Shown piece after piece: positions 23,886 to 34,512 of a stretch of DNA of 64,000 nt (positions are counted from its first letter, which is position 1; each line of letters begins with the position of its first letter). A program made the translations under genes and the position numbers. Under the pieces are notes generated by a model. It ran no database searches. It saw only the letters and a list, made by a program, of their open reading frames with translations, and was not told where the DNA came from. Where the stretch lies: contig NZ_JADEYH010000012.1 of assembly GCF_017114865.1 (NCBI RefSeq), forward strand, positions 1 to 64,000, read 5' to 3'. This stretch comes from Streptomyces verrucosisporus. GTDB taxonomy: Bacteria; Actinomycetota; Actinomycetes; Streptomycetales; Streptomycetaceae.

Positions 23886-24746
23886 TTGCCAGAGCTGCCC
23901 GAGGTCGAGGTCGTCCGGCGCGGACTCGAGCGCTGGGTCGGCGGTCGCACCATCGCCGGAACCGAGGTGCTTCACCCCCGGGCGATCCGCCGCCACCTCG
24001 CCGGAGCGGAGGACTTCGCCGACCGGCTGTGCGGGGCGCGCGTCGGCGTGCCGCTGCGCCGAGGCAAGTACCTGTGGCTGCCGCTTCAGGACACCGGCCA
24101 GTGCGTCCTGGCCCACCTCGGCATGAGCGGGCAGCTGCTCGTCCAGCCCCAGGACACCCCCGACGAGAAGCACCTGCGCGTCCGCGTCCGCTTCGCCGAC
24201 GAAGCGGGCACCGAGCTGCGCTTCGTCGACCAGCGCACCTTCGGCGGGCTGTCGCTGCACGCCACCACTGACGACGGCCTGCCCGACGTCATAGCCCACA
24301 TCGCCCGCGACCCGCTGGACCCGGCCTTCGACGAGGCGGCCTTCCACACCGCCCTGCGCCGCCGCAGCAGCACGCTCAAGCGGGCACTGCTCGACCAGTC
24401 CCTGATCAGCGGGGTCGGCAACATCTACGCGGACGAGGCACTGTGGCGCTCGCGGCTGCACTACGACCGTCCCACCGCCACCCTCACCCGCCCGCGCACC
24501 GCCGAACTCCTCGGCCATGTCCGCGACGTGATGAACGCGGCCCTCGCCGTCGGCGGCACCAGCTTCGACAGCCTCTACGTCAACGTCAACGGGGAGTCGG
24601 GTTACTTCGAACGCTCCCTGGACGCCTACGGCCGGGAGGGCCTGCCCTGCCGCCGCTGTGCCGCGCCGATGCGCCGCAGCCCCTGGATGAACCGCTCCAG
24701 CTACTTCTGCCCGCGCTGCCAGCGCCCGCCCCGCCCGGCGCGCTGA
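23886..24746 (+). CDS. mutM: formamidopyrimidine-DNA glycosylase
   Basis: 286-aa repair enzyme excising 8-oxoguanine. The start must be the TTG at 23886: the next codons give PELPEVE, and the catalytic nucleophile is the proline exposed after removal of Met1; no in-frame ATG or GTG lies nearby. A GAGGAG site is about 8 nt upstream. It has [13 protein letters not shown] for the helix-two-turn-helix and a C-terminal zinc finger CRRC...CPRC. The AICE attL site starts 48 bp after the stop. Confidence 0.96.
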
Positions 24747-24794
24747 ACACCGCCCGCGGCCCGCATGCGGTGGGGGTGCCCGGCGGGAGGCCGA

Positions 24795-24807
24795 TCAGAA
24801 GCCGAAG
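24795..24807. other. attL core
   Basis: 13-bp core TCAGAAGCCGAAG, identical to attR. It follows mutM by 48 bp. Sequence to its left is chromosomal, and to its right is the attP arm of the element, whose first codons (AAG TGA) would finish the integrase gene in the excised circle. Confidence 0.85.
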
Positions 24808-24825
24808 AAGTGACGCGGGCCCTCG

Positions 24826-24837
24826 CTGACCTGGGGG
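24826..24837 (+). repeat. 12-bp putative integrase arm site, left copy
   Basis: CTGACCTGGGGG, identical to 34424-34435. In the excised circle the two copies would flank the core in direct orientation, 18 bp and 4 bp away, as expected of arm-type integrase sites. Confidence 0.5.
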
Positions 24838-24843
24838 CCTTCC

Positions 24844-24900
24844 GGCGACCAACGCTGTGACCTGCGGCTTACCCGCCGACGGTTGTCAACGTTGGTCGCC
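24844..24900. repeat. 11-bp inverted repeat near attL
   Basis: GGCGACCAACG (24844-24854) and its exact complement (24890-24900) with 35 bp between. It may bind Xis or Int, or be a hairpin. The interval 24808-25041 holds no convincing gene. Confidence 0.5.
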
Positions 24901-25041
24901 TTTGGCTGCCCTCGGACGGCCCAGCGACGGCCCGAGCGGAGGTGCTTCGGCGCACCTCTCGATGCGAACCACCGATGGGGCGTCGGCCTCGGTCGCGCTG
25001 GTTGCTGTACAGCACCGGTCCTGAAGATCGCTGACCCGCCC

Positions 25042-25320
25042 CTACTCCTTGATCTTGACCTGGAAACCAAGGCGCTTCAGCCATGCGGCCGCATGCTCCT
25101 TGCCACCGCTGAACTCGCCGGAAGTCAGCGCCCGTCCCTGGTCCCACTTATGTGCTACTCCGGCGATCGCCTTCGAGTCGTACTCCCGCCCCTCGTGCAC
25201 GAGAACGTACGATCGGGCTTCTCCGAAGCCGTACTTCGACAGGAACGCCTCACGTCCTGCCTCGTCGTACTCTTCGATGACCTTGAGTACGGATTCCCGT
25301 GTGATCGCTCCTCTGCGCAT
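25042..25320 (-). CDS. stand-alone protein resembling the ScoMcrA N-terminal head domain
   Basis: 92-aa protein with the pattern TRESVLKVIEEYDEAGREAFL, KYGF, VLVHEGREYDSKAIAGVAH and LTSGEFSGG, ending in a short LKRLGF strand. From memory this matches the N-terminal head domain found on ScoMcrA-type restriction endonucleases that cut modified DNA. Those proteins continue into SRA/HNH domains; here the gene stops after the domain. There is no clear ribosome site before ATG 25320. It may be a remnant, an antirestriction protein or an independent small protein. GC is lower than in its neighbours. Confidence 0.7.
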   Translation of the reverse strand: MRRGAITRESVLKVIEEYDEAGREAFLSKYGFGEARSYVLVHEGREYDSKAIAGVAHKWDQGRALTSGEFSGGKEHAAAWLKRLGFQVKIKE

Positions 25321-25694
25321 GGATGAAGGCTACGGCTGGGGCTGACAACGTGGTGACGATCTCGGTCAACTTGTTGGTAGGTGGAGGTTTCCGGGGGCAC
25401 GGCCTGCGGCTACGACTTGAGGTCGGCGGAGCGGGTTTGGCCGGTGTCCTGCCTGGGCTGGGGTCGGGCATGATCAGGGGGCCGTACGCTGGTTGGCAAC
25501 TCGGGCAGGCTTTGGACCTGCCCGCAATGTGTCCGAGTGGCCCCCTGGTCGTGCCCGACGCGGGTCCCGGACCGGGCAGGTGGGTAAAGCCGTGGAGCCG
25601 ACCGCCCCCAGCCCCGGCCTGGTCTTTTCGCCCCCTTGCGGGCGCGGGCGGGTGACGGCGCGCGGCCCCGGCGGCGAAGACGAGGAGGGGCCAA

Positions 25695-25756
25695 GCGCGG
25701 CGGCGCCCGGCCCGGCGCCGCCGCGCTGTGCGCGGCACCTGATCCCTGTGGGATCA
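25695..25756. repeat. stacked hairpins in the AICE non-coding region
   Basis: A perfect 13-bp stem (25695-25707 with 25714-25726) and, 13 bp on, a 7-bp stem with a 3-nt loop (25740-25746 with 25750-25756). They lie in the 25321-26044 gap of the element, which has no convincing gene. Candidate roles are the single-strand origin or cis transfer locus, or an accessory-gene terminator. Confidence 0.5.
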
Positions 25757-26044
25757 AGACTGCCCTTGGCAGACGTGGAGGCCGGGAACCGTGGGACGCG
25801 TCTTCGTGTTCCTGGTGTGCTGTGCACGGCCCTGCCTGCTTCCGCCGGTCCAGAGATGCCGGCCGTTGTGGTCGCCCCGTGGTTGGGGGCCAGTCGGACG
25901 CAGCGGCGGGCAGGCCAGGGGCTGTCCGGGGTTGCTGGAGCTGCGGTTTGGCGGCTCGGGTTGGCGGTGGTCGGTGGACCGTTCCCGGCGGCCGGGCAAG
26001 CGAGCGGAGCGAGCCTTGATGAGGTAGAGAAACCTGTAACAGTC

Positions 26045-26545
26045 CTACGTGGGGCGCTGGAACAGTGCACCTGACTTCCGGTGCTCCAGGTCGACCAACC
26101 TGACCAGGGTGAACCCTTGGCGCTCGTAGTAGCGGTGCAACCCTGGATTGGTCTTCCACGCGTCCAGGCGCAACCACCCCTTGCCCTGCTGAGCGGCACG
26201 CTTGGTAGCCCAGTCCAGCATCACGGCCCCAACATCCCGCCCCGCCGCTGCCCGGCTCGTCGCCATGCGGTGAACGTAGAGCGCGCTGCCGGGGTCGTCG
26301 GCCTCGGTCCAGAACTCCGGGTCGGCGTGGTCGTCCACGGTGATCGTGCCGATGGGCCGGTCCTCGTCATCGACCGCCAGGAAGCACTCGGCGTGCCTGA
26401 TGGCCTTCTGGATGCGGTCGCGGTGGGGCGGGAACTGCCACTGGTCGATCCCGCGTGAGGCGAGCCACTCGGACGCTTCGATCAGAAGCTCCTCGACGGT
26501 CGGCAGCTCCTCGGCGCTCGCGGGCCGGATGCGGAGTCCGCTCAT
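26045..26545 (-). CDS. GNAT-family N-acetyltransferase
   Basis: 166-aa acetyltransferase. It begins LRIRPASAEELPTVEEL, has the beta4/alpha3 acetyl-CoA region with VHRMATSRAAAGRDVG, then LRLDAW and YYERQGF at the C-terminal fold end. Substrate unknown. Its ATG overlaps the stop of the GntR gene by 4 bp (ATGA), so repressor and acetyltransferase are one transcript, and the acetyltransferase may be autoregulated with it. Confidence 0.9.
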   Translation of the reverse strand: MSGLRIRPASAEELPTVEELLIEASEWLASRGIDQWQFPPHRDRIQKAIRHAECFLAVDDEDRPIGTITVDDHADPEFWTEADDPGSALYVHRMATSRAAAGRDVGAVMLDWATKRAAQQGKGWLRLDAWKTNPGLHRYYERQGFTLVRLVDLEHRKSGALFQRPT

Positions 26546-27318
26546 GACTGGTCCGCGGGCGTCTCGCGGCGTCGCTCGTAGGAGATCACGTGACGGTCGC
26601 CGGGTAGGACCGAGATCGCGACTCGGACGGGCTTGCCTTCCTCGGTGTACCCGGTGCACACGTGGTAGCCGACGGGCGTTCCGGGTGCCAACTCCAATCG
26701 CCGTACCTCGTCGGGGGTGGGCATGCGGACGTATAGCTCATCGATGGCCCGCTCCTGGCGGTAGCCGAGTCCGGCCAGCACCTCGTTCGCGCCCTCGGGG
26801 ATGCTCTCGGGCCGCATGATCGGGGTGTCCCGCACCAGGTCGAGCGGGAAGAAGCTGTCGTTGATGTTGAACGGCTCGCCGTCCAGGTAGCGGACTCGGC
26901 GGCGGGTGACGACGAGTTGTCCGGCTTCGAGCTGGAGGCGCTTGGTCACCTCGGCGGTCGGCTCCACGATGCTGACCTCGATGGTCTGCTCGGGGTCGCG
27001 GCCCTGATGCTCGGTCATGAAGGCGTCCATCTCCGGCGTGTACGGCCGGGGGCGGAACTCCGCCTGGGGTCGGAAGACCATCGGCTTGCGCTCGCGGACG
27101 AAGTACCCGACGGGGCGCTTGGAGACGATCAACCCTTCGTTGACGAGGATGTCCAGCGCCGCGCGAACCGTGCCGCGCGTCACGCCGTACTCGTCGGTGA
27201 GCTGGGCCTCTGTCGGCAACTTGGCGCCGGGCGCGAGAGTGCCGGCCGCGATCTGCTGACGCAGGTCGTCAGAGATCTGCTGCTTGTAGGTGCCGCGACC
27301 GACCTTCTTGACTGCCAT
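26542..27318 (-). CDS. GntR/HutC-family repressor, KorSA-like
   Basis: 258-aa regulator with an N-terminal winged helix (about 10-75, GTYKQQISDDLRQQIAAG ... VTRGTVRAALDIL) and a C-terminal UTRA effector domain. Its position, divergent from the transfer genes, matches KorSA of pSAM2, which represses the tra/rep genes and itself. The 171-bp divergent gap contains two related inverted repeats that fit as its operators. Confidence 0.9.
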   Translation of the reverse strand: MAVKKVGRGTYKQQISDDLRQQIAAGTLAPGAKLPTEAQLTDEYGVTRGTVRAALDILVNEGLIVSKRPVGYFVRERKPMVFRPQAEFRPRPYTPEMDAFMTEHQGRDPEQTIEVSIVEPTAEVTKRLQLEAGQLVVTRRRVRYLDGEPFNINDSFFPLDLVRDTPIMRPESIPEGANEVLAGLGYRQERAIDELYVRMPTPDEVRRLELAPGTPVGYHVCTGYTEEGKPVRVAISVLPGDRHVISYERRRETPADQS

Positions 27319-27343
27319 GCCTCCATGAAACGCCGCGCGACCT

Positions 27344-27361
27344 GCATTGTCCAGTCAATGT
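27344..27361. promoter_or_regulatory. KorSA-like operator, imperfect copy
   Basis: GCATTGTCCAGTCAATGT, an imperfect palindrome with outer half-sites like those at 27413-27430, located 26 bp upstream of the repressor start. It fits autorepression. Confidence 0.55.
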
Positions 27362-27372
27362 GGCCAAAGCCC

Positions 27373-27402
27373 TTGACGGAGCGCCGCCGAGGGGTCAACA
27401 TC
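27373..27402 (+). promoter_or_regulatory. putative promoter for the transfer operon
   Basis: TTGACG (27373-27378), 18-bp spacer, CAACAT (27397-27402). The perfect operator begins 10 bp after it, over the expected transcription start. Confidence 0.45.
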
Positions 27403-27412
27403 TGAACTGTTC

Positions 27413-27430
27413 GCATTGTTCAAACAATGC
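27413..27430. promoter_or_regulatory. KorSA-like operator, perfect palindrome
   Basis: GCATTGTT-CA-AACAATGC, perfect 8-bp arms, 60 bp before the first forward gene. The TTGT/ACAA half-site style suits GntR-type repressors. Confidence 0.65.
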
Positions 27431-27489
27431 AGACGTTGATCTGACCCGTGGGTAGTGCCTGCTGCCCTCCCCTGAGAGGAAGTCCTGTC

Positions 27490-27840
27490 ATGGCGTCTTT
27501 CAAGATCGACCTGTCGACCGCTGCGGTGATCGTGGCGACCGCCCCGCAGCCGAAGATCGCGAACCGGCGGACCGGTGAGATCGCCACCGACCCGGAGACC
27601 GGCGCGCAGCTGATGACGGTGGGCCTGATGGTGGTGGACGACGGTGAGGCCAACCTGCTGGACAAGGTCACGGTGCTGGAGACCGGCATCACCGGGGAGC
27701 TGACCACCGGGGCGCCGGTGGGAGTGACCGGGCTGCGGGCGCGGGAGTGGGAGAACGTCTTCAACGGCGAGAAGCGGCAGGGCATCTCCTTCCGCGCGGT
27801 GGCCATCACCCCGATGGTCCCGGCGACGGTGCAGGGCTGA
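27490..27840 (+). CDS. small conserved AICE protein upstream of tra
   Basis: 116-aa soluble protein, beta-rich, without signal or membrane segments. It is the first gene of the forward transfer operon, with a GAGAGGAAG ribosome site, and ends 5 bp before tra. Similar small proteins precede tra in other Streptomyces AICEs as I recall, but their role is unknown. Confidence 0.8.
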   Translation: MASFKIDLSTAAVIVATAPQPKIANRRTGEIATDPETGAQLMTVGLMVVDDGEANLLDKVTVLETGITGELTTGAPVGVTGLRAREWENVFNGEKRQGISFRAVAITPMVPATVQG

Positions 27841-27845
27841 GCGCC

Positions 27846-29186
27846 GTGTCGAACCTGACCGCTGTGGTGCTGGTGGTCGCCGTGGTGGCCGGTGGCGGGC
27901 TGCTGGCTCGCCGCCGGTTCCCGGCCGCGTGCTGGGTGCTGGCCGGGTTGCCGGTGGCCTGGGTGCGGCTGCACCTGACGTATGCGGCCACGATGGAGGT
28001 GTGCGGGCTGACCGTCACCCCGTCGCGGGCGCGGGCCTTTCTGACCCGGACGGTGGCCCGGCGGGAGGTCCGGCCGGTGGCTCCGCGGATTGTGCGGGTG
28101 CGGCCCAGCGCGACGGGGCTGCGGGTGCGGCTGCGGCTTCCGGCCGGGCTGGAACCGGCGGATGTGGCGGCGGCCTCGGTGCGGCTGCGCCATGCCTGGG
28201 GTGTGCACGCCGTGCACGTGGCGGAGATCAAGCCGGGTGTGGTGGAGCTGCGGATGACCGGCTACGACGTCCTCAAGCGGGTGCGGATGCCGCGCCGGGG
28301 CCTGCCCACCGGTGCGCTGGTGGTGCCGGTGGCGCTGCGCGAGGACGGCACCCCGTTCGTGCGCGACTACCGGGCCATTCCGCACGCGCTGACGCTGGGT
28401 GCGAACCAGTCGGGCAAGTCGATGTATCTGCGCAACCTGATCACCGCGCTCGCGGCCCGGCCGGTGGCGCTGGTCGGGATCGACTGCAAGCGCGGGGTGG
28501 AGCAGCGCCGCTTTGGTCCGCGGCTGTCGGCGCTGGCCACCACTCCGGATGAGGCCTCCGGTCTGCTGGCCGCCCTGGTGGCGGTGATGGAGGAGCGCTT
28601 CGACCTGCTCAGCGAGCGGGGTGTCTCCGATGTCTGGGACCTGCCCGCCGAGCTGCGGCCAACTCCGGTGGTGGTGCTGGTGGATGAGGTGGCCGAACTG
28701 TTCCTGGTTGCCGCCAAGAAGGACGAGGCCCGGCGGGATGAGATGGTCACCCGTCTGGTGCGGCTGGCGCAGATGGCCCGCGCGGTCGGCATCTACCTGG
28801 AGATCTGCGGCCAGCGCTTCGGCTCCGACCTGGGCAAGGGCGCCACCCTGCTGCGCGCGCAGCTCACCGGCCGGGTGGTGCACCGGGTCAACGACAAGCA
28901 GACCGTCGAGATGGGGCTGAACGACATCGCCCCCGAGGCCATTCCGGTGGCTACCACCATCGCCCCGGACCGGCCCGGCCTGGCCGTGGCCGGGGACGCC
29001 TCCGGCGCCTGGTCCCGCATCCGCACCGTGGAGATCGCCCCGGACACGGCGGCGGCCGTCTGCCGCACCTTCGCCCACCTCACCCCCGACCTTCCGGCCC
29101 TCGCCGCCTGGCGGCCCGCCGCCCCGGCCGTACCGGATGCGGGTGAGCGGCCGTCGCTGGTCAAACCGGCCCCGGTCACCGACTAA
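27846..29186 (+). CDS. FtsK/SpoIIIE-type DNA translocase, plasmid transfer protein Tra
   Basis: 446-aa conjugation motor. Two hydrophobic segments near the N-terminus (about 5-25 and 30-48) anchor it, followed by an ATPase with Walker A GANQSGKS (about 184) and Walker B VVVLVDEVAEL (about 276). Known biology: TraB/TraSA-type proteins move double-stranded DNA between mycelia as hexamers. The GTG at 27846 follows the previous stop by 5 bp. Confidence 0.92.
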   Translation: MSNLTAVVLVVAVVAGGGLLARRRFPAACWVLAGLPVAWVRLHLTYAATMEVCGLTVTPSRARAFLTRTVARREVRPVAPRIVRVRPSATGLRVRLRLPAGLEPADVAAASVRLRHAWGVHAVHVAEIKPGVVELRMTGYDVLKRVRMPRRGLPTGALVVPVALREDGTPFVRDYRAIPHALTLGANQSGKSMYLRNLITALAARPVALVGIDCKRGVEQRRFGPRLSALATTPDEASGLLAALVAVMEERFDLLSERGVSDVWDLPAELRPTPVVVLVDEVAELFLVAAKKDEARRDEMVTRLVRLAQMARAVGIYLEICGQRFGSDLGKGATLLRAQLTGRVVHRVNDKQTVEMGLNDIAPEAIPVATTIAPDRPGLAVAGDASGAWSRIRTVEIAPDTAAAVCRTFAHLTPDLPALAAWRPAAPAVPDAGERPSLVKPAPVTD

Positions 29187-29267
29187 CCCCCTCTCCCCTT
29201 ACCGGTGGGCGCGGCCGTCTTCGCGCCGTGTCCCTACCCCCGCCATGCCTGAAAGGAGGTGCTCCCC

Positions 29268-29996
29268 GTGCGCACCAAACTCCGCCTCGACGCCGTGCTG
29301 ATCCAGGCCGTCATCGCCGGTGCCCTGTCGTTCGCCCACCTGCACGACCTGGCCGCGGCGGCCGGTCAGGACGGCTGGAAAGCCTGGGCCTACCCCATCA
29401 GCGTGGATCTGCTGCTGGTCGCCGCCTGGCACCGCATCCGCACCCTGCAAGCCGCCGACCTTCCGGCGGGCTCGGCCTGGTGCTGGTTCGTCATCGCCCT
29501 CGCCGCCTCGCTGGGCGCGAACGTGGCCACCGCCGGACTGCTGGACCTCACCGACGTGCCCGCCTGGCTGCGCATCCTCGTCGCCGGATGGCCCGCGCTG
29601 GCCTTCTTCGGCGGCACCCTGCTGGCCCACACCACACCCGACACCACCCCGGAGCCGGAGCCGGATGCGCCGGCCACCGCGCCCGGCCCGGCTGCCCCGG
29701 TCGTCGAACGCGCACCGGAACCGGCCGCCCCGGCTGTCGAGCCGGATCCGGTCCCCGAACTCGACCCCGCCCCGGCCCCGGTGGCGCCCGAACCGGCCCC
29801 GGCTGCCGACCCGGCTCCGGCTCCGGCTCCGGCTGCTACGGCGGTGACGGTTCCGGCCGCGCTGGTCGAGCACGCCCGCAAGGTCGCCGACGCCCACCGC
29901 GCCCGCACCGGCACGCCCATCGACCCCGACACCCTGCGCGCCCGCCTCGGGGTGCCCGCCCCGATGGCCGACGCCATCGCCGCCCAACTCACCTGA
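29268..29996 (+). CDS. DUF2637 membrane protein (SpdB-like)
   Basis: 242-aa protein with four predicted membrane helices in the first about 120 residues (e.g. AVIAGALSFAHL, FVIALAASLGANVATAG, ILVAGWPALAFFGGTLL), then a Pro/Ala/Glu-rich linker with PAP repeats and a helical C-terminus. It starts at GTG 29268 after AAAGGAGGT. SpdB-type proteins help spread the element within the mycelium. Confidence 0.85.
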   Translation: MRTKLRLDAVLIQAVIAGALSFAHLHDLAAAAGQDGWKAWAYPISVDLLLVAAWHRIRTLQAADLPAGSAWCWFVIALAASLGANVATAGLLDLTDVPAWLRILVAGWPALAFFGGTLLAHTTPDTTPEPEPDAPATAPGPAAPVVERAPEPAAPAVEPDPVPELDPAPAPVAPEPAPAADPAPAPAPAATAVTVPAALVEHARKVADAHRARTGTPIDPDTLRARLGVPAPMADAIAAQLT

Positions 29997-30014
29997 CAGG
30001 AGGACTGATCCGCC

Positions 30015-30191
30015 ATGGCCGGACGTGAACCCGACCGCTCCGACTTCCTCGACGCCGCCCGCGAGATGGCCGACACCGGCCGCCCCGAGCTGGCCCGGTG
30101 GCTCGCCGAGGAAGCCGCCGACCGCACCACCGACCCCGACGAAGCGGCCTACATCCTGGCCAGCTACCCCGACCCCACCACCAAGGAGTGA
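30015..30191 (+). CDS. small acidic AICE protein
   Basis: 58-aa protein (starts MAGREPDRSDFLDAAREMAD, ends DPTTKE), predicted helical. An ACAGGAGG site lies 10 nt upstream of the ATG, and the next gene starts 2 bp after the stop, so it is within the transfer operon. No function is known. Confidence 0.75.
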   Translation: MAGREPDRSDFLDAAREMADTGRPELARWLAEEAADRTTDPDEAAYILASYPDPTTKE

Positions 30192-30193
30192 CC

Positions 30194-30382
30194 ATGCCGC
30201 GCCCGAACCGCTTCCGCGACGTGCTCCGCGTCGGCCCGGTCCAGGTCGGCACCTACTACGACGGCCGGGGCCGCGACAAGCACACCGCCGCCTGCACCGC
30301 CCCGCGCTGCGGCTTCTCCGCCGACTACCACAGCCGCTCAGCCGCCGAGCTGGCCGCCCGCACCCACCGCTGCACCGCCTGA
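30194..30382 (+). CDS. mobile-element transfer protein (SpdA-type, small)
   Basis: 62-aa basic protein. The segment GPVQVGTYYDGRGRDKHTA and CTAPRCGFSADYHSRSAAEL are typical of small proteins annotated as mobile element transfer proteins in Streptomyces AICEs. The two cysteines and two histidines could bind metal. Role in intramycelial spread is inferred from position. Confidence 0.85.
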   Translation: MPRPNRFRDVLRVGPVQVGTYYDGRGRDKHTAACTAPRCGFSADYHSRSAAELAARTHRCTA

Positions 30383-30405
30383 CCCCCTGGAAGGGAGCAC
30401 CCGCG

Positions 30406-30753
30406 ATGTCGATGTTCCGCCCCACCTACCCGCCGCCCGACACCTACACCGCCCCGGCCATGCCCGCGGCCCCGTCCCCGTCCTCGGCCGTGCCGCTGGT
30501 CCCCGCCGACCCGGACCCGACCCCGGCCACCGCACCCGTGCCCGCCCCGGCTTCGGTGCCGCCCAGGCCGGTCCTCCAGCTCACCCCCGGCGCCCTGGTC
30601 ACCGTCGCCGCCGGTGGCACCGCCGCCGTCCTGGTCGTCGGCACGGTGCTGGTCTCCCTGCTCCTGGCCGTCGCCGTCACCGCCACCTCGGTCGCGGTCT
30701 GCGCGGTCGTCCTGCGCTCCCTGCTCAACAACCAGCACGGCCGGGGCCGGTGA
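30406..30753 (+). CDS. SpdD-like protein with one membrane segment
   Basis: 115-aa protein. A Pro/Ala-rich N-terminal half is followed by a single long hydrophobic helix (about 72-105, VTVAAGGTAAVLVVGTVLVS) and a short basic tail. It has an AAGGGAG site upstream. Similar to SpdD proteins, which act in intramycelial spread. Confidence 0.75.
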   Translation: MSMFRPTYPPPDTYTAPAMPAAPSPSSAVPLVPADPDPTPATAPVPAPASVPPRPVLQLTPGALVTVAAGGTAAVLVVGTVLVSLLLAVAVTATSVAVCAVVLRSLLNNQHGRGR

Positions 30754-30760
30754 TCACCGC

Positions 30761-31312
30761 ATGGACACCCACCACCTGATCGCCGCCGCCCTGCCCGCGC
30801 TGGGCTGGGCCGTCCACGGCGGCCTGCTGGCCCGCCGCCTGGCCAGTGCCCGCCGGGATCCGCTGACCGGGCTGCACACCCGCGCCGGATTCACCGCCCG
30901 CGCCGAACGGATCCTGGCTACCTCTCCGGCCGCGCTGGTGCTGCTGGTGGACCTGGACGACTTCAAGGCCGTCAACGACACCCACGGCCACGCCGCCGGG
31001 GACGCCATCCTGACCGCCACCGCCGACCGGCTGACCCGCTGGTGCGCACGGCACGGAATCGCCGCCCGCCTCGGCGGAGACGAGTTCGCCGCCGTCGTCA
31101 CCAACCCGGCCCGCACCTGCGGCCTGGCCGCGCTGCGCGAGGACCTGCGCCAGCCGGTCGCCCACGGCGGTCGCCTGCTGCCGGTCTCGGCCTCGGTCGG
31201 CTCCTGCTCCCGCACCGAGCTGCCGGTACCGACCCTGACCGACGCCCTGTCGGCGGCCGATGCGGCGATGTACGCGGCCAAGGGCCACGGCAGGCGCAAC
31301 ACCCACAACTAA
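30761..31312 (+). CDS. GGDEF-domain diguanylate-cyclase-like protein
   Basis: 183-aa protein: a short hydrophobic N-terminus (about 5-28) and one GGDEF domain. The metal-site Asp region LLVDLDDFKAVND (about 66-78) and the intact GGDEF motif (residues 105-109) are there, so activity is possible. The usual I-site RxxD five residues before GGDEF is absent, so no product inhibition is expected. It lies 7 bp after the SpdD gene and may couple c-di-GMP, which controls Streptomyces development through BldD, to transfer. Confidence 0.92.
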   Translation: MDTHHLIAAALPALGWAVHGGLLARRLASARRDPLTGLHTRAGFTARAERILATSPAALVLLVDLDDFKAVNDTHGHAAGDAILTATADRLTRWCARHGIAARLGGDEFAAVVTNPARTCGLAALREDLRQPVAHGGRLLPVSASVGSCSRTELPVPTLTDALSAADAAMYAAKGHGRRNTHN

Positions 31313-31407
31313 GCGGCTCCCGGGGCGGCCTCAACCGCCAAGTTTCCGCCGCCCCGGATGCCTCCTTTCCCTTCCAGATCCGCAGATCCGAAAGAGAGGA
31401 CCTCATC

Positions 31408-31590
31408 ATGCCCCAGCACGCTCCGCACCGGCCGATCTGCCGCGACTGCGACGGCTTCCCGGCCGTGGCCATCACCACCGGCACCCGCCACCGCGACGGC
31501 TCCCGCGTGACCGTCCGCGTGGTCTGCCCGGCCTGCCGAGGCACCGGCCACGCCCCCCGCACCGCGGCCCTGGTCCGCGCCGGGCGGTGA
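31408..31590 (+). CDS. small zinc-ribbon protein
   Basis: 60-aa protein with two CxxC knuckles (CRDC and CPAC), the second followed by RGTGHAPR as in DnaJ-type zinc ribbons. It has AGAGAGGA upstream and overlaps the possible GTG start of rep. No known function; small zinc proteins next to Rep are usual in AICEs. Confidence 0.8.
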   Translation: MPQHAPHRPICRDCDGFPAVAITTGTRHRDGSRVTVRVVCPACRGTGHAPRTAALVRAGR

Positions 31591-31598
31591 CCGCGCCC

Positions 31599-32984
31599 AT
31601 GACCGACGCCGCCACGCTGGCGGGGGTGGACCCGATCACCTGGCAGGACTTCCTGCGGGTGGCCGGGTCCCCCGGCTTTGACCGCTGGCAAGAGCAGGTG
31701 CGCCGCACCGGCGGCTGCGCCGACCCCATCCACCTGACCGGCTCCACCAAGACCCTCGACCGCATCACCGGCACCGTCCTGCACGCCTACTCCACCGATG
31801 GTGAGCCCGGCGGCCGCCTGCGGGTGGCCTGCGGCAACCGCCGCGCCTCGCGCTGCCCGTCCTGCGCCTGGACCTACGCCGGAGACACCTTCCACCTCAT
31901 CCGCGCCGGACTGACCGGCGACCGCTCCAAGGGCGTGGCCGAGACCGTCCGCGACCACCCCCGCGTCTTCGCCACCCTCACCGCACCGTCCTTCGGCCCG
32001 GTGCACAACCGTCCCGCCCGCGGCCGGTGCCGCTGCGGTGCCCGCCACCGCGAGAACGCGCCCGAGCTGGGCACCCCGCTCGACCCCGACACCTACGACT
32101 ACGCCGGGGCGGTGCTGTGGAACAACCACGCCTCCGAGCTGTGGCGGTACTTCACCATCTACCTGCGCCGGGAAGTCGCCCGCCAGACCGGACGGACCCA
32201 GAAAGCCTGCCACCAGGTGCTGCGAGTGGCGTTCGGCAAGGTCGCCGAGTACCAGCGCCGGGGCGCGGTCCACTTCCACGCCGTCATCCGCTTCGACGGC
32301 CCCGACGGACCCGCCTCCGCCCCGCCCCAGTGGGCCACCGTGGAGCTGCTGACCAACGCCATCCGCGCCGCCGCCGCCCGCGTCGCCATCACCGTGCCCG
32401 CCGCCGGCACCCAGCCCGCCCGCACCCTGCGCTGGGGCACCCAGCTCGACATCCAGCCCATCGGCGCCTTCGACGGCGGGGAGATCACCGAACAGGCCGT
32501 CGCCTCCTACGTCGCCAAGTACGCCACCAAGGCCGCCGAGACCACGGGCACGGTGGACCACCGGGTCGGCAGCGTCGAGGCCCTCGATCTGCTGGACGTG
32601 CCCGAGCATCCCAGGCGGCTGATCGCGGCCTGCCTCGACCTGCACCGGTTCTACCCGGATCGGAAGCTGTGGGCCTGGGCGCACATGCTCGGCTTCCGGG
32701 GCCACTTCTCCACCAAGTCGCGCCGCTACTCCACCACCCTCGGCGCGCTGCGCCAGGTCCGCGCCGACTACCGCGCCGCCGAACAACGCGCCGCCCTCGG
32801 CCTGCCCGATCCCGACGACCGCCCCGAGGCGACCGTGCTGACCGTCGCCCACTGGGCCTACGCCGGGCACGGCCACACCGCTGGCGAGTCCTGGCTCGCC
32901 TCCCAGATCGCCCGCGACATCCGCGCATCCCGCGACGCAGCACGCGAAGCACGCGCAGACCTCGAAGCACAAGGAGAGTGGTGA
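31599..32984 (+). CDS. rolling-circle replication initiator, RepSA-type
   Basis: 461-aa protein, near the 459 aa of pSAM2 RepSA. It has a zinc-finger pair RCPSC (about 88), the HUH motif VHFHAV (about 226) and the catalytic tyrosine motif YVAKYATK (about 304). This makes the element able to replicate as a circle after excision. A GTG at 31587 overlapping the previous stop is an alternative start. xis begins 2 bp after the stop. Confidence 0.92.
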   Translation: MTDAATLAGVDPITWQDFLRVAGSPGFDRWQEQVRRTGGCADPIHLTGSTKTLDRITGTVLHAYSTDGEPGGRLRVACGNRRASRCPSCAWTYAGDTFHLIRAGLTGDRSKGVAETVRDHPRVFATLTAPSFGPVHNRPARGRCRCGARHRENAPELGTPLDPDTYDYAGAVLWNNHASELWRYFTIYLRREVARQTGRTQKACHQVLRVAFGKVAEYQRRGAVHFHAVIRFDGPDGPASAPPQWATVELLTNAIRAAAARVAITVPAAGTQPARTLRWGTQLDIQPIGAFDGGEITEQAVASYVAKYATKAAETTGTVDHRVGSVEALDLLDVPEHPRRLIAACLDLHRFYPDRKLWAWAHMLGFRGHFSTKSRRYSTTLGALRQVRADYRAAEQRAALGLPDPDDRPEATVLTVAHWAYAGHGHTAGESWLASQIARDIRASRDAAREARADLEAQGEW

Positions 32985-32986
32985 CC

Positions 32987-33181
32987 ATGGCCCGTCCGCT
33001 CCCGGCCCGCTACCTGACCCCGGTGGACGTGGCCGACTTGTTCGGCGTGCCGGTGGAGACGGTCTACCAGTGGCGGCGCAAGGGCACCGGTCCCCGCGGC
33101 TTCCGGGTCGGCCGTCATCTGCGCTTCGACCCCGAGGACGTGCGGCGCTGGGTGGCCGAGCAGATGGGGGCGGCTGCCTGA
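32987..33181 (+). CDS. xis: excisionase, MerR-like helix-turn-helix (Xis)
   Basis: 64-aa DNA-binding protein of the winged-helix MerR/Xis type, with LTPVDVADLFGVPVETVYQW and the GFRVGRHLRFDPEDV wing. Its stop overlaps the integrase start in TGATG. Together with Int it directs excision. Confidence 0.9.
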   Translation: MARPLPARYLTPVDVADLFGVPVETVYQWRRKGTGPRGFRVGRHLRFDPEDVRRWVAEQMGAAA

Positions 33182-34512
33182 TGGCCGGACACATCCAAGA
33201 CCGCTGGTTCAAGACCGTGCCTGGTCCGGACGGCAAGCCGGTCAAGGTCAAGACCGCCCGCCATGGCAAGGGTCTGCGCTACCGCGCTCGGTACGTCGCC
33301 CCGGACGGCACGGAGAAGAGCCAGTCCTTCCCCGACAAGGCCAAGCGCAAGGCGGAAGCCTGGCTCGCCAAGATCGGGGCCGACCTGGCGCGGGGTGACT
33401 ACGTCGATCCGGCGTCGGGTCGTGTCACGTTCCGGGAGTACGTCGCGGACTGGATCAAGACGCAGACCACCGACCCGGCTACGCGGGGATCCGTCGAGAT
33501 GCGGCTACGGCTGCACGCGGTCCCGTACCTGGGCTCTCGGACGATGGGGACGATCCAGCCGTCGCATCTGCGGCTGTGGATGCGGCAGATGGAGGACGCC
33601 GGACTGTCCCCGGCCTACCGCCGGGTGATCTTCGCGCACGTCTCGACGGTCTTCACTGCTGCCGTGGAGGATCGCGTGATCCGCGAGAACCCGTGCCGGG
33701 CCCGGTCGGTCAAGGCTCCCCGGCCCGACCCACGCAAGGTCAAGCCGTGGTCAGAGGAACGTGTGATGGCGGTCCGCTCGCAGCTCCCGGACGGCTACCG
33801 CGCGATGGTCGAGCTGGCGGCGGGCTGTGGGCTGCGGCAGGGGGAGGTCTTCGGCCTGGCCGTGGAGGACCTCGACTTCCTCGGCGGCCTGGTGCACGTC
33901 GTCCGCCAGGTCAAGTTGCTGGACAACCGGCCGGTCTTCGCTCCGCCCAAGGGCGGCAAGGAACGGGACGTACCGCTGCCGGAATCCGTGGCGGCCGTCC
34001 TGGCCGACCACATCACGCGGCACAAGCCGTGCGAGATCACGCTGCCGTGGAAGACGCCGGACGGCCCGCCGGTGACGGCGACGCTCCTCTTCTCCAGCCC
34101 GACCGGGCTGCCGCTGGACCGGAACCGCTTCAACGATCGCGTGTGGAGGCCGGCACTTCGGGCTGTCGGTGTGCCGACGGGCCGGGAGAACGGCATGCAC
34201 GCGCTACGGCACTTCTACGCTTCGGTCCTCCTGGACGCGGGGGAGAGCATCAAGGCCCTGAGCGAGTACCTGGGGCACCACGATCCGGGCTACACCCTGC
34301 GGACGTACACGCACCTGATGCCGACGAGTCAGACGCGGACCCGTGCCGCTGTGGATCGGGTCTTCGGCGGCCCGATGGGTTCCGGTGACGGCCCGGAGAC
34401 GGCCCAGGGACCGGATCAGGGCTCTGACCTGGGGGATTCTCAGAAGCCGAAGTTCTGTGTCCACCAGGGGCCGCCCTCGGCGAAGTGCGCACCCACGCCC
34501 AGGGTCCGGTAG
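33181..34512 (+). CDS. int: tyrosine site-specific integrase
   Basis: 443-aa recombinase. It has an arm-binding N-domain, a core-binding SAM-like domain (about 80-180) and a catalytic domain with Arg in CGLRQGE (about 219), HxxR in HALRH (about 340-344), LGHH and Tyr in TYTHL (residue 376). The gene runs across attR: its last 19 codons come from the antisense strand of the host CAP gene. In the excised circle it would end after KPKK, giving 425 aa. The two forms differ only in the tail. Confidence 0.95.
   Translation: MAGHIQDRWFKTVPGPDGKPVKVKTARHGKGLRYRARYVAPDGTEKSQSFPDKAKRKAEAWLAKIGADLARGDYVDPASGRVTFREYVADWIKTQTTDPATRGSVEMRLRLHAVPYLGSRTMGTIQPSHLRLWMRQMEDAGLSPAYRRVIFAHVSTVFTAAVEDRVIRENPCRARSVKAPRPDPRKVKPWSEERVMAVRSQLPDGYRAMVELAAGCGLRQGEVFGLAVEDLDFLGGLVHVVRQVKLLDNRPVFAPPKGGKERDVPLPESVAAVLADHITRHKPCEITLPWKTPDGPPVTATLLFSSPTGLPLDRNRFNDRVWRPALRAVGVPTGRENGMHALRHFYASVLLDAGESIKALSEYLGHHDPGYTLRTYTHLMPTSQTRTRAAVDRVFGGPMGSGDGPETAQGPDQGSDLGDSQKPKFCVHQGPPSAKCAPTPRVR
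34424..34435 (+). repeat. 12-bp putative integrase arm site, right copy
   Basis: CTGACCTGGGGG, inside the 3' end of int and 4 bp before the core. Identical to the copy at 24826-24837. Confidence 0.5.
34440..34452. other. attR core
   Basis: Same 13 bp as attL. Read on the reverse strand it is the end of the CAP gene (the last base of a codon, Phe, Gly, Phe, stop), so the integrated element restores the host coding sequence exactly. Confidence 0.85.

Follow-up and report, generated by a model that had tools for sequence, protein, structure and literature searches.

A head-only, ScoMcrA-like open reading frame on a Streptomyces integrative element is probably a deletion remnant of a nuclease gene

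ScoMcrA (SCO4631, PDB 5ZMM) is a type IV restriction enzyme that depends on phosphorothioated (PT) or 5-methylcytosine-containing DNA. In its crystal structure the dimer is formed by the sulfur-binding domain (SBD), the SRA domain and the HNH domain, and the head, which is flexibly attached, contributes no contacts to it (PMC6224610). The SBD binds PT-DNA, and binding of phosphorothioated DNA persists in constructs that begin at residue 91 (PMC6224610). Restriction systems are counted among the cargo in a survey of the actinomycete integrative and conjugative elements (AICEs) of Streptomyces, in which pseudogenised genes make up 42% of the cargo, compared with 7% of the core genome (PMC9513070). 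We found no literature that links McrA to AICEs. Here, we analyze a stretch of 64,000 nucleotides from Streptomyces verrucosisporus (contig NZ_JADEYH010000012.1, positions 1 to 64,000; the window), in which a pSAM2-type AICE carries a short open reading frame (ORF) that encodes a ScoMcrA-type head and nothing else. This ORF is very probably the 5' remnant, left by a deletion, of an AICE-borne head-middle-HNH gene for a type IV-restriction-like nuclease.

Window 25042-25320, minus strand: head ORF, 92 aa, ATG start, TAG stop; ScoMcrA-type head domain only.

The sequence-only reading had likened this reverse gene to the ScoMcrA head and had noticed that it ends after this domain, and both statements are borne out. 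ScoMcrA (5ZMM chain A, 5zmm_A) is the sole solved relative of the 92-aa protein (phmmer, E 7.3e-23); residues 5-89 align to ScoMcrA residues 6-92, and the two heads are about 50% identical. The PADLOC type IV model mREase_IV matches with an E-value of 6.8e-25, covering profile positions 4-91 of 560 only, and the TAG stop after residue 92 coincides with the end of the head domain. An AlphaFold2 model built on 36 head sequences, with two rows from the plasmid collection left out, reaches a pLDDT of 84 and superposes on the 5ZMM head (Z 12.5, root-mean-square deviation 1.1 Å, 71 residues). Thus, the predicted fold agrees with that of ScoMcrA as well. In contrast to ScoMcrA, the window protein has no SBD, no SRA-like domain and no HNH domain; an HNH with zinc-binding cysteines was found neither in the ORF nor in any frame of the 250 bp downstream. 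No rival family emerged from the domain searches. Pfam and NCBIfam contain no family that covers the ORF, and sub-threshold matches to rve (E 0.17) and to the PADLOC model Cas11f (weak, E 0.027) were judged to be chance. A Foldseek search with the head model returned 5zmm as the sole convincing match, with all others at E > 1, although this search leaves room for other relatives. The phage collection gave no match to the head, and within the host genome this ORF is the only one. A promoter scan nearby produced one weak sigma-70-like site, which is uninformative.

Among 392 Streptomyces genomes the head was found in 60 (about 15%), and some of these copies are broken. The nearest relatives of the window protein are the first 90 or so residues of AICE-borne Streptomyces ORFs of about 353 aa (L002-L029), with 78-87% amino acid identity over residues 1-89. 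These longer proteins consist of the head, a helical middle region and, at the C-terminus, an HNH domain (PF01844); nearly all are intact and conserve the HNH cysteines and histidine. By sequence, no ScoMcrA-type SBD or SRA was detected in them. The profile of this family matches 5ZMM over the head only and the EcoKMcrA structure 6GHC over the HNH; judged from these matches, the full-length gene is an architecture distinct from ScoMcrA that has the head in common with it. The sequence-only reading had likened the lone head to that of SRA- and HNH-bearing ScoMcrA-like enzymes. The head and the HNH are found in the relatives, the SRA is not, and since the closest full-length relatives are devoid of a detectable SBD or SRA the head ORF does not derive from a ScoMcrA ortholog. 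The middle region may nevertheless hold a diverged reader of modified DNA, because it is not confidently modelled: the AlphaFold2 prediction of the full-length L002 protein has a pLDDT of 57 overall, with low values beyond residue 92.

Compared with these nucleases, the window gene has the middle region and the HNH deleted. The most instructive comparison is with L139 (genome G376), an AICE that occupies the same att site and shares the RepSA, TraB, Spd-like and GGDEF genes with the window element (identity 77% for RepSA, 76% for GGDEF and 75% for the integrase). In the slot of the head ORF, and in its orientation, L139 has a head-HNH gene that is intact and encodes 362 aa. The L139 head is only 66% identical to that of the window; the head ORF is therefore related to the L139 cargo gene but not directly descended from it. 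Two intervals of the window define what was lost:

Window 24981-25048: deletion junction interval; homology to the full-length genes ends at 25048, homology to the L139 element end starts at 24980.
Window 24795-24980: AICE end on the mutM side, conserved; 74% identity with the corresponding end in L046/L139.

The element-end homology (24980-24795) lies about 1.4 kb further on in L139, and this stretch of L139 is absent from the window. At the junction the window reads GTCAAG-ATCAAGGAGTAG, where the relatives have GTCAAGGCCATCAAGAACCCGGAC. A frameshifted HNH remnant directly downstream, which the sequence-only reading had named as evidence against its proposal, was sought at the protein and at the DNA level. 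No trace of the middle region or the HNH was found downstream of the head: the protein-level score was equalled in 71 of 100 shuffles and the DNA-level score was at chance. The sharp end of homology, together with the missing HNH trace, shows that the loss was by deletion and not by frameshift.

The head ORF is nested within the AICE-borne head-middle-HNH clade of the tree, it occupies the same slot as the L139 gene and its 3' part is lost abruptly. Compared with its relatives, the ORF lost everything past codon 89-91 in an internal deletion that measures about 1.4 kb against L139, and the junction happened to supply three codons and a stop. Without the HNH the product should be unable to cut DNA, and the defence activity of the element would be gone. 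The leftover ORF is probably functionless and drifting, as is common for AICE cargo.

The sequence-only reading had left the choice between a remnant and a decoy. Of these, the remnant gains from the full-length near relatives, one of them at the same AICE site, from the break at 25048 and from the 1.4 kb deleted. The decoy found no positive support. As a decoy, the free head would bind modified DNA or poison ScoMcrA-like enzymes of the recipient and so shield the incoming element. In favour of this reading, the ORF resides on a conjugative element, and about 15% of the sampled genomes have head-bearing nucleases. However, the rest of the gene was removed by deletion, and the intact gene on the same type of element encodes a nuclease. 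Anti-restriction DNA mimics are acidic proteins; the 92-aa protein is basic overall (pI 8.96, 16 K+R vs 14 D+E), and at a pI of 9.0 does not present the surface of a DNA mimic. By homology to ScoMcrA only, the head also lies outside the surfaces for dimerisation and for binding of modified DNA (PMC6224610), so that no surface is known by which a head on its own could poison the dimer or vie for modified DNA. A decoy is conceivable only through some further partner of the head, and we consider this function very improbable.

The host genome is assembled as a 105-contig draft, in which an intact gene might have been truncated by an error of sequencing or assembly. This explanation can be set aside almost completely. 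The same ORF, with the same stop and the same mutM-side junction, is present in S. barkulensis RC 1831 (L073) and in Streptomyces sp. CNQ085 (L074), hence in two independent assemblies of other species, and no HNH sequence follows downstream in any frame. The window is 97% identical to L073 over 3.7 kb and 95% identical to L074 over 6.3 kb, with chromosome flanks included. On this sequence comparison the truncated allele is neither recent nor private, and the deletion is older than the split of the host from both relatives. Across the three species the head ORF is free of indels and has accumulated 12 nucleotide changes, 6 of them nonsynonymous and 6 synonymous. When neutral evolution was simulated for the three species with the mutation spectrum of neighbouring noncoding DNA, 8.6 of the 12 changes were expected to be nonsynonymous; the probability of 6 or fewer is 0.086. 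These substitutions are compatible with neutral drift; they neither demonstrate selection nor rule it out. The same simulation retains a frame free of stop codons with a probability of 0.77, and the open frame is thus uninformative.

Three observations weigh against a mere remnant. The frame is open in three species and shows no amino acid change after residue 21. The break in the window coincides with the domain boundary, and the fold is left whole. Stand-alone heads apparently arose three times in the sampled tree: three state changes are needed among the 36 heads, one for the window allele with L074, one for L026/L050 (99 aa) and one for L051/L052/L060 (95 aa). Elsewhere, copies are broken at codon 44 (L014), at about codons 58-60 (L054, L055) and at codon 99 (L026/L050), and further copies are frameshifted at later positions of the gene (L004, L021, L053, L062). 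Breakpoints are therefore spread and not clustered at the domain boundary.

The repeated origin of stand-alone heads would fit an autonomous module with another role, as a protein partner, autoregulator or sensor, that was retained by selection after truncation. The 95-aa clade (pairwise dN 0.12-0.22, dS 0.44-0.71, dN/dS about 0.22-0.49) looks to be under constraint, and the window allele has a weak synonymous excess. This excess is not significant at a P of 0.086, however, and the L026/L050 head is one copy only. The 95-aa clade is not close to the head ORF and has no conserved neighbours, and at the L060 locus one of its copies (L058) has decayed. We regard retention in such a role as unlikely. 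Similarly doubtful, and slightly more so, is the specific version in which the loss of the nuclease part turned an AICE defence gene into a selected stand-alone head, as in the 95-aa family, that perhaps modulates head-bearing nucleases or binds the normal partner of the head. Should this version hold, no smaller reagents than the 92-aa protein and the 95-aa family would be available for probing what the head does.

The 95-aa stand-alone heads form a family in three Streptomyces genomes (L051:9992-10276, L052:9992-10276 and L060:9992-10276). Like the window protein they are head only and stop after the same secondary-structure element. In contrast, they lie on a separate branch of the tree, have 53-59% identity to the window protein and are not found on this type of AICE. 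A search for conserved neighbours of the family revealed none, except that L058 and L060 represent one chromosomal locus.

Deletion of the nuclease part with retention of the element backbone makes the locus an example of the decay of AICE defence cargo. The lone head is ordinary in kind; what interest remains lies in the head's own role and in the 95-aa family. ScoMcrA-type heads front several nuclease architectures, namely SBD-SRA-HNH, middle-HNH and NOV_C. The last is represented by L102, a protein of 378 aa with an N-terminal head (39% identity) that, unlike the head of the window, is fused to NOV_C (DUF3883). L102:3968-5104 is the one plasmid head that was inspected; it is located on a resistance plasmid and adjoins IS26. 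Distant heads occur on more than 1000 plasmids, mostly enterobacterial.

The placement of the head gene on an AICE, as the sequence-only reading had it, is supported by the following features, by the genes between them and by empty sites in related genomes.

Window 24795-34452: AICE, pSAM2-type, 9,658 bp, delimited by att repeats and gene content and by empty sites in related genomes.
Window 24795-24807, plus strand: att core TCAGAAGCCGAAG, mutM side, downstream of mutM.
Window 34440-34452, plus strand: att core TCAGAAGCCGAAG, inside the 3' end of the CAP-domain gene.

The 13-bp core has exactly two copies in the whole window. Between them are genes for a GNAT protein, a GntR/UTRA regulator, a 130-aa protein, FtsK/TraB, a DUF2637 (Spd-like) protein, a GGDEF protein, RepSA, a Xis-like HTH_17 protein and a tyrosine integrase. 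All the hallmarks of a pSAM2-type AICE are thus present: att direct repeats, tyrosine integrase, Xis, RepSA, TraB (FtsK/SpoIIIE) and a GntR regulator. In the related genomes L067, L068 and L070-L072 mutM is followed directly by the CAP gene, and L067 and L070 have a single att core at these empty sites. Most of the 15 related elements that were inspected reside at the mutM-CAP site, and most are flanked by the core on both sides. The 3' end of the CAP gene by mutM (window 24746-34440) is a repeatedly used integration site other than a tRNA gene: in more than 10 Streptomyces genomes it is occupied by AICE-like elements that carry this integrase. The integrase ORF of the window (33178-34512, plus strand) does not stop before the attR core (34440-34452) but continues across it, antisense to the CAP gene, whereas in most relatives at this site int ends 21 bp short of the core. 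On excision, the C-terminal tail of the window integrase would change.

Cyclic di-GMP controls development in Streptomyces, and a conjugative element of this genus that encodes a diguanylate cyclase may merit separate study. The GGDEF motif is intact in one protein of the element (window 30614-31312, plus strand; PF00990, E 1e-29), of which L139 carries a 76% identical copy.
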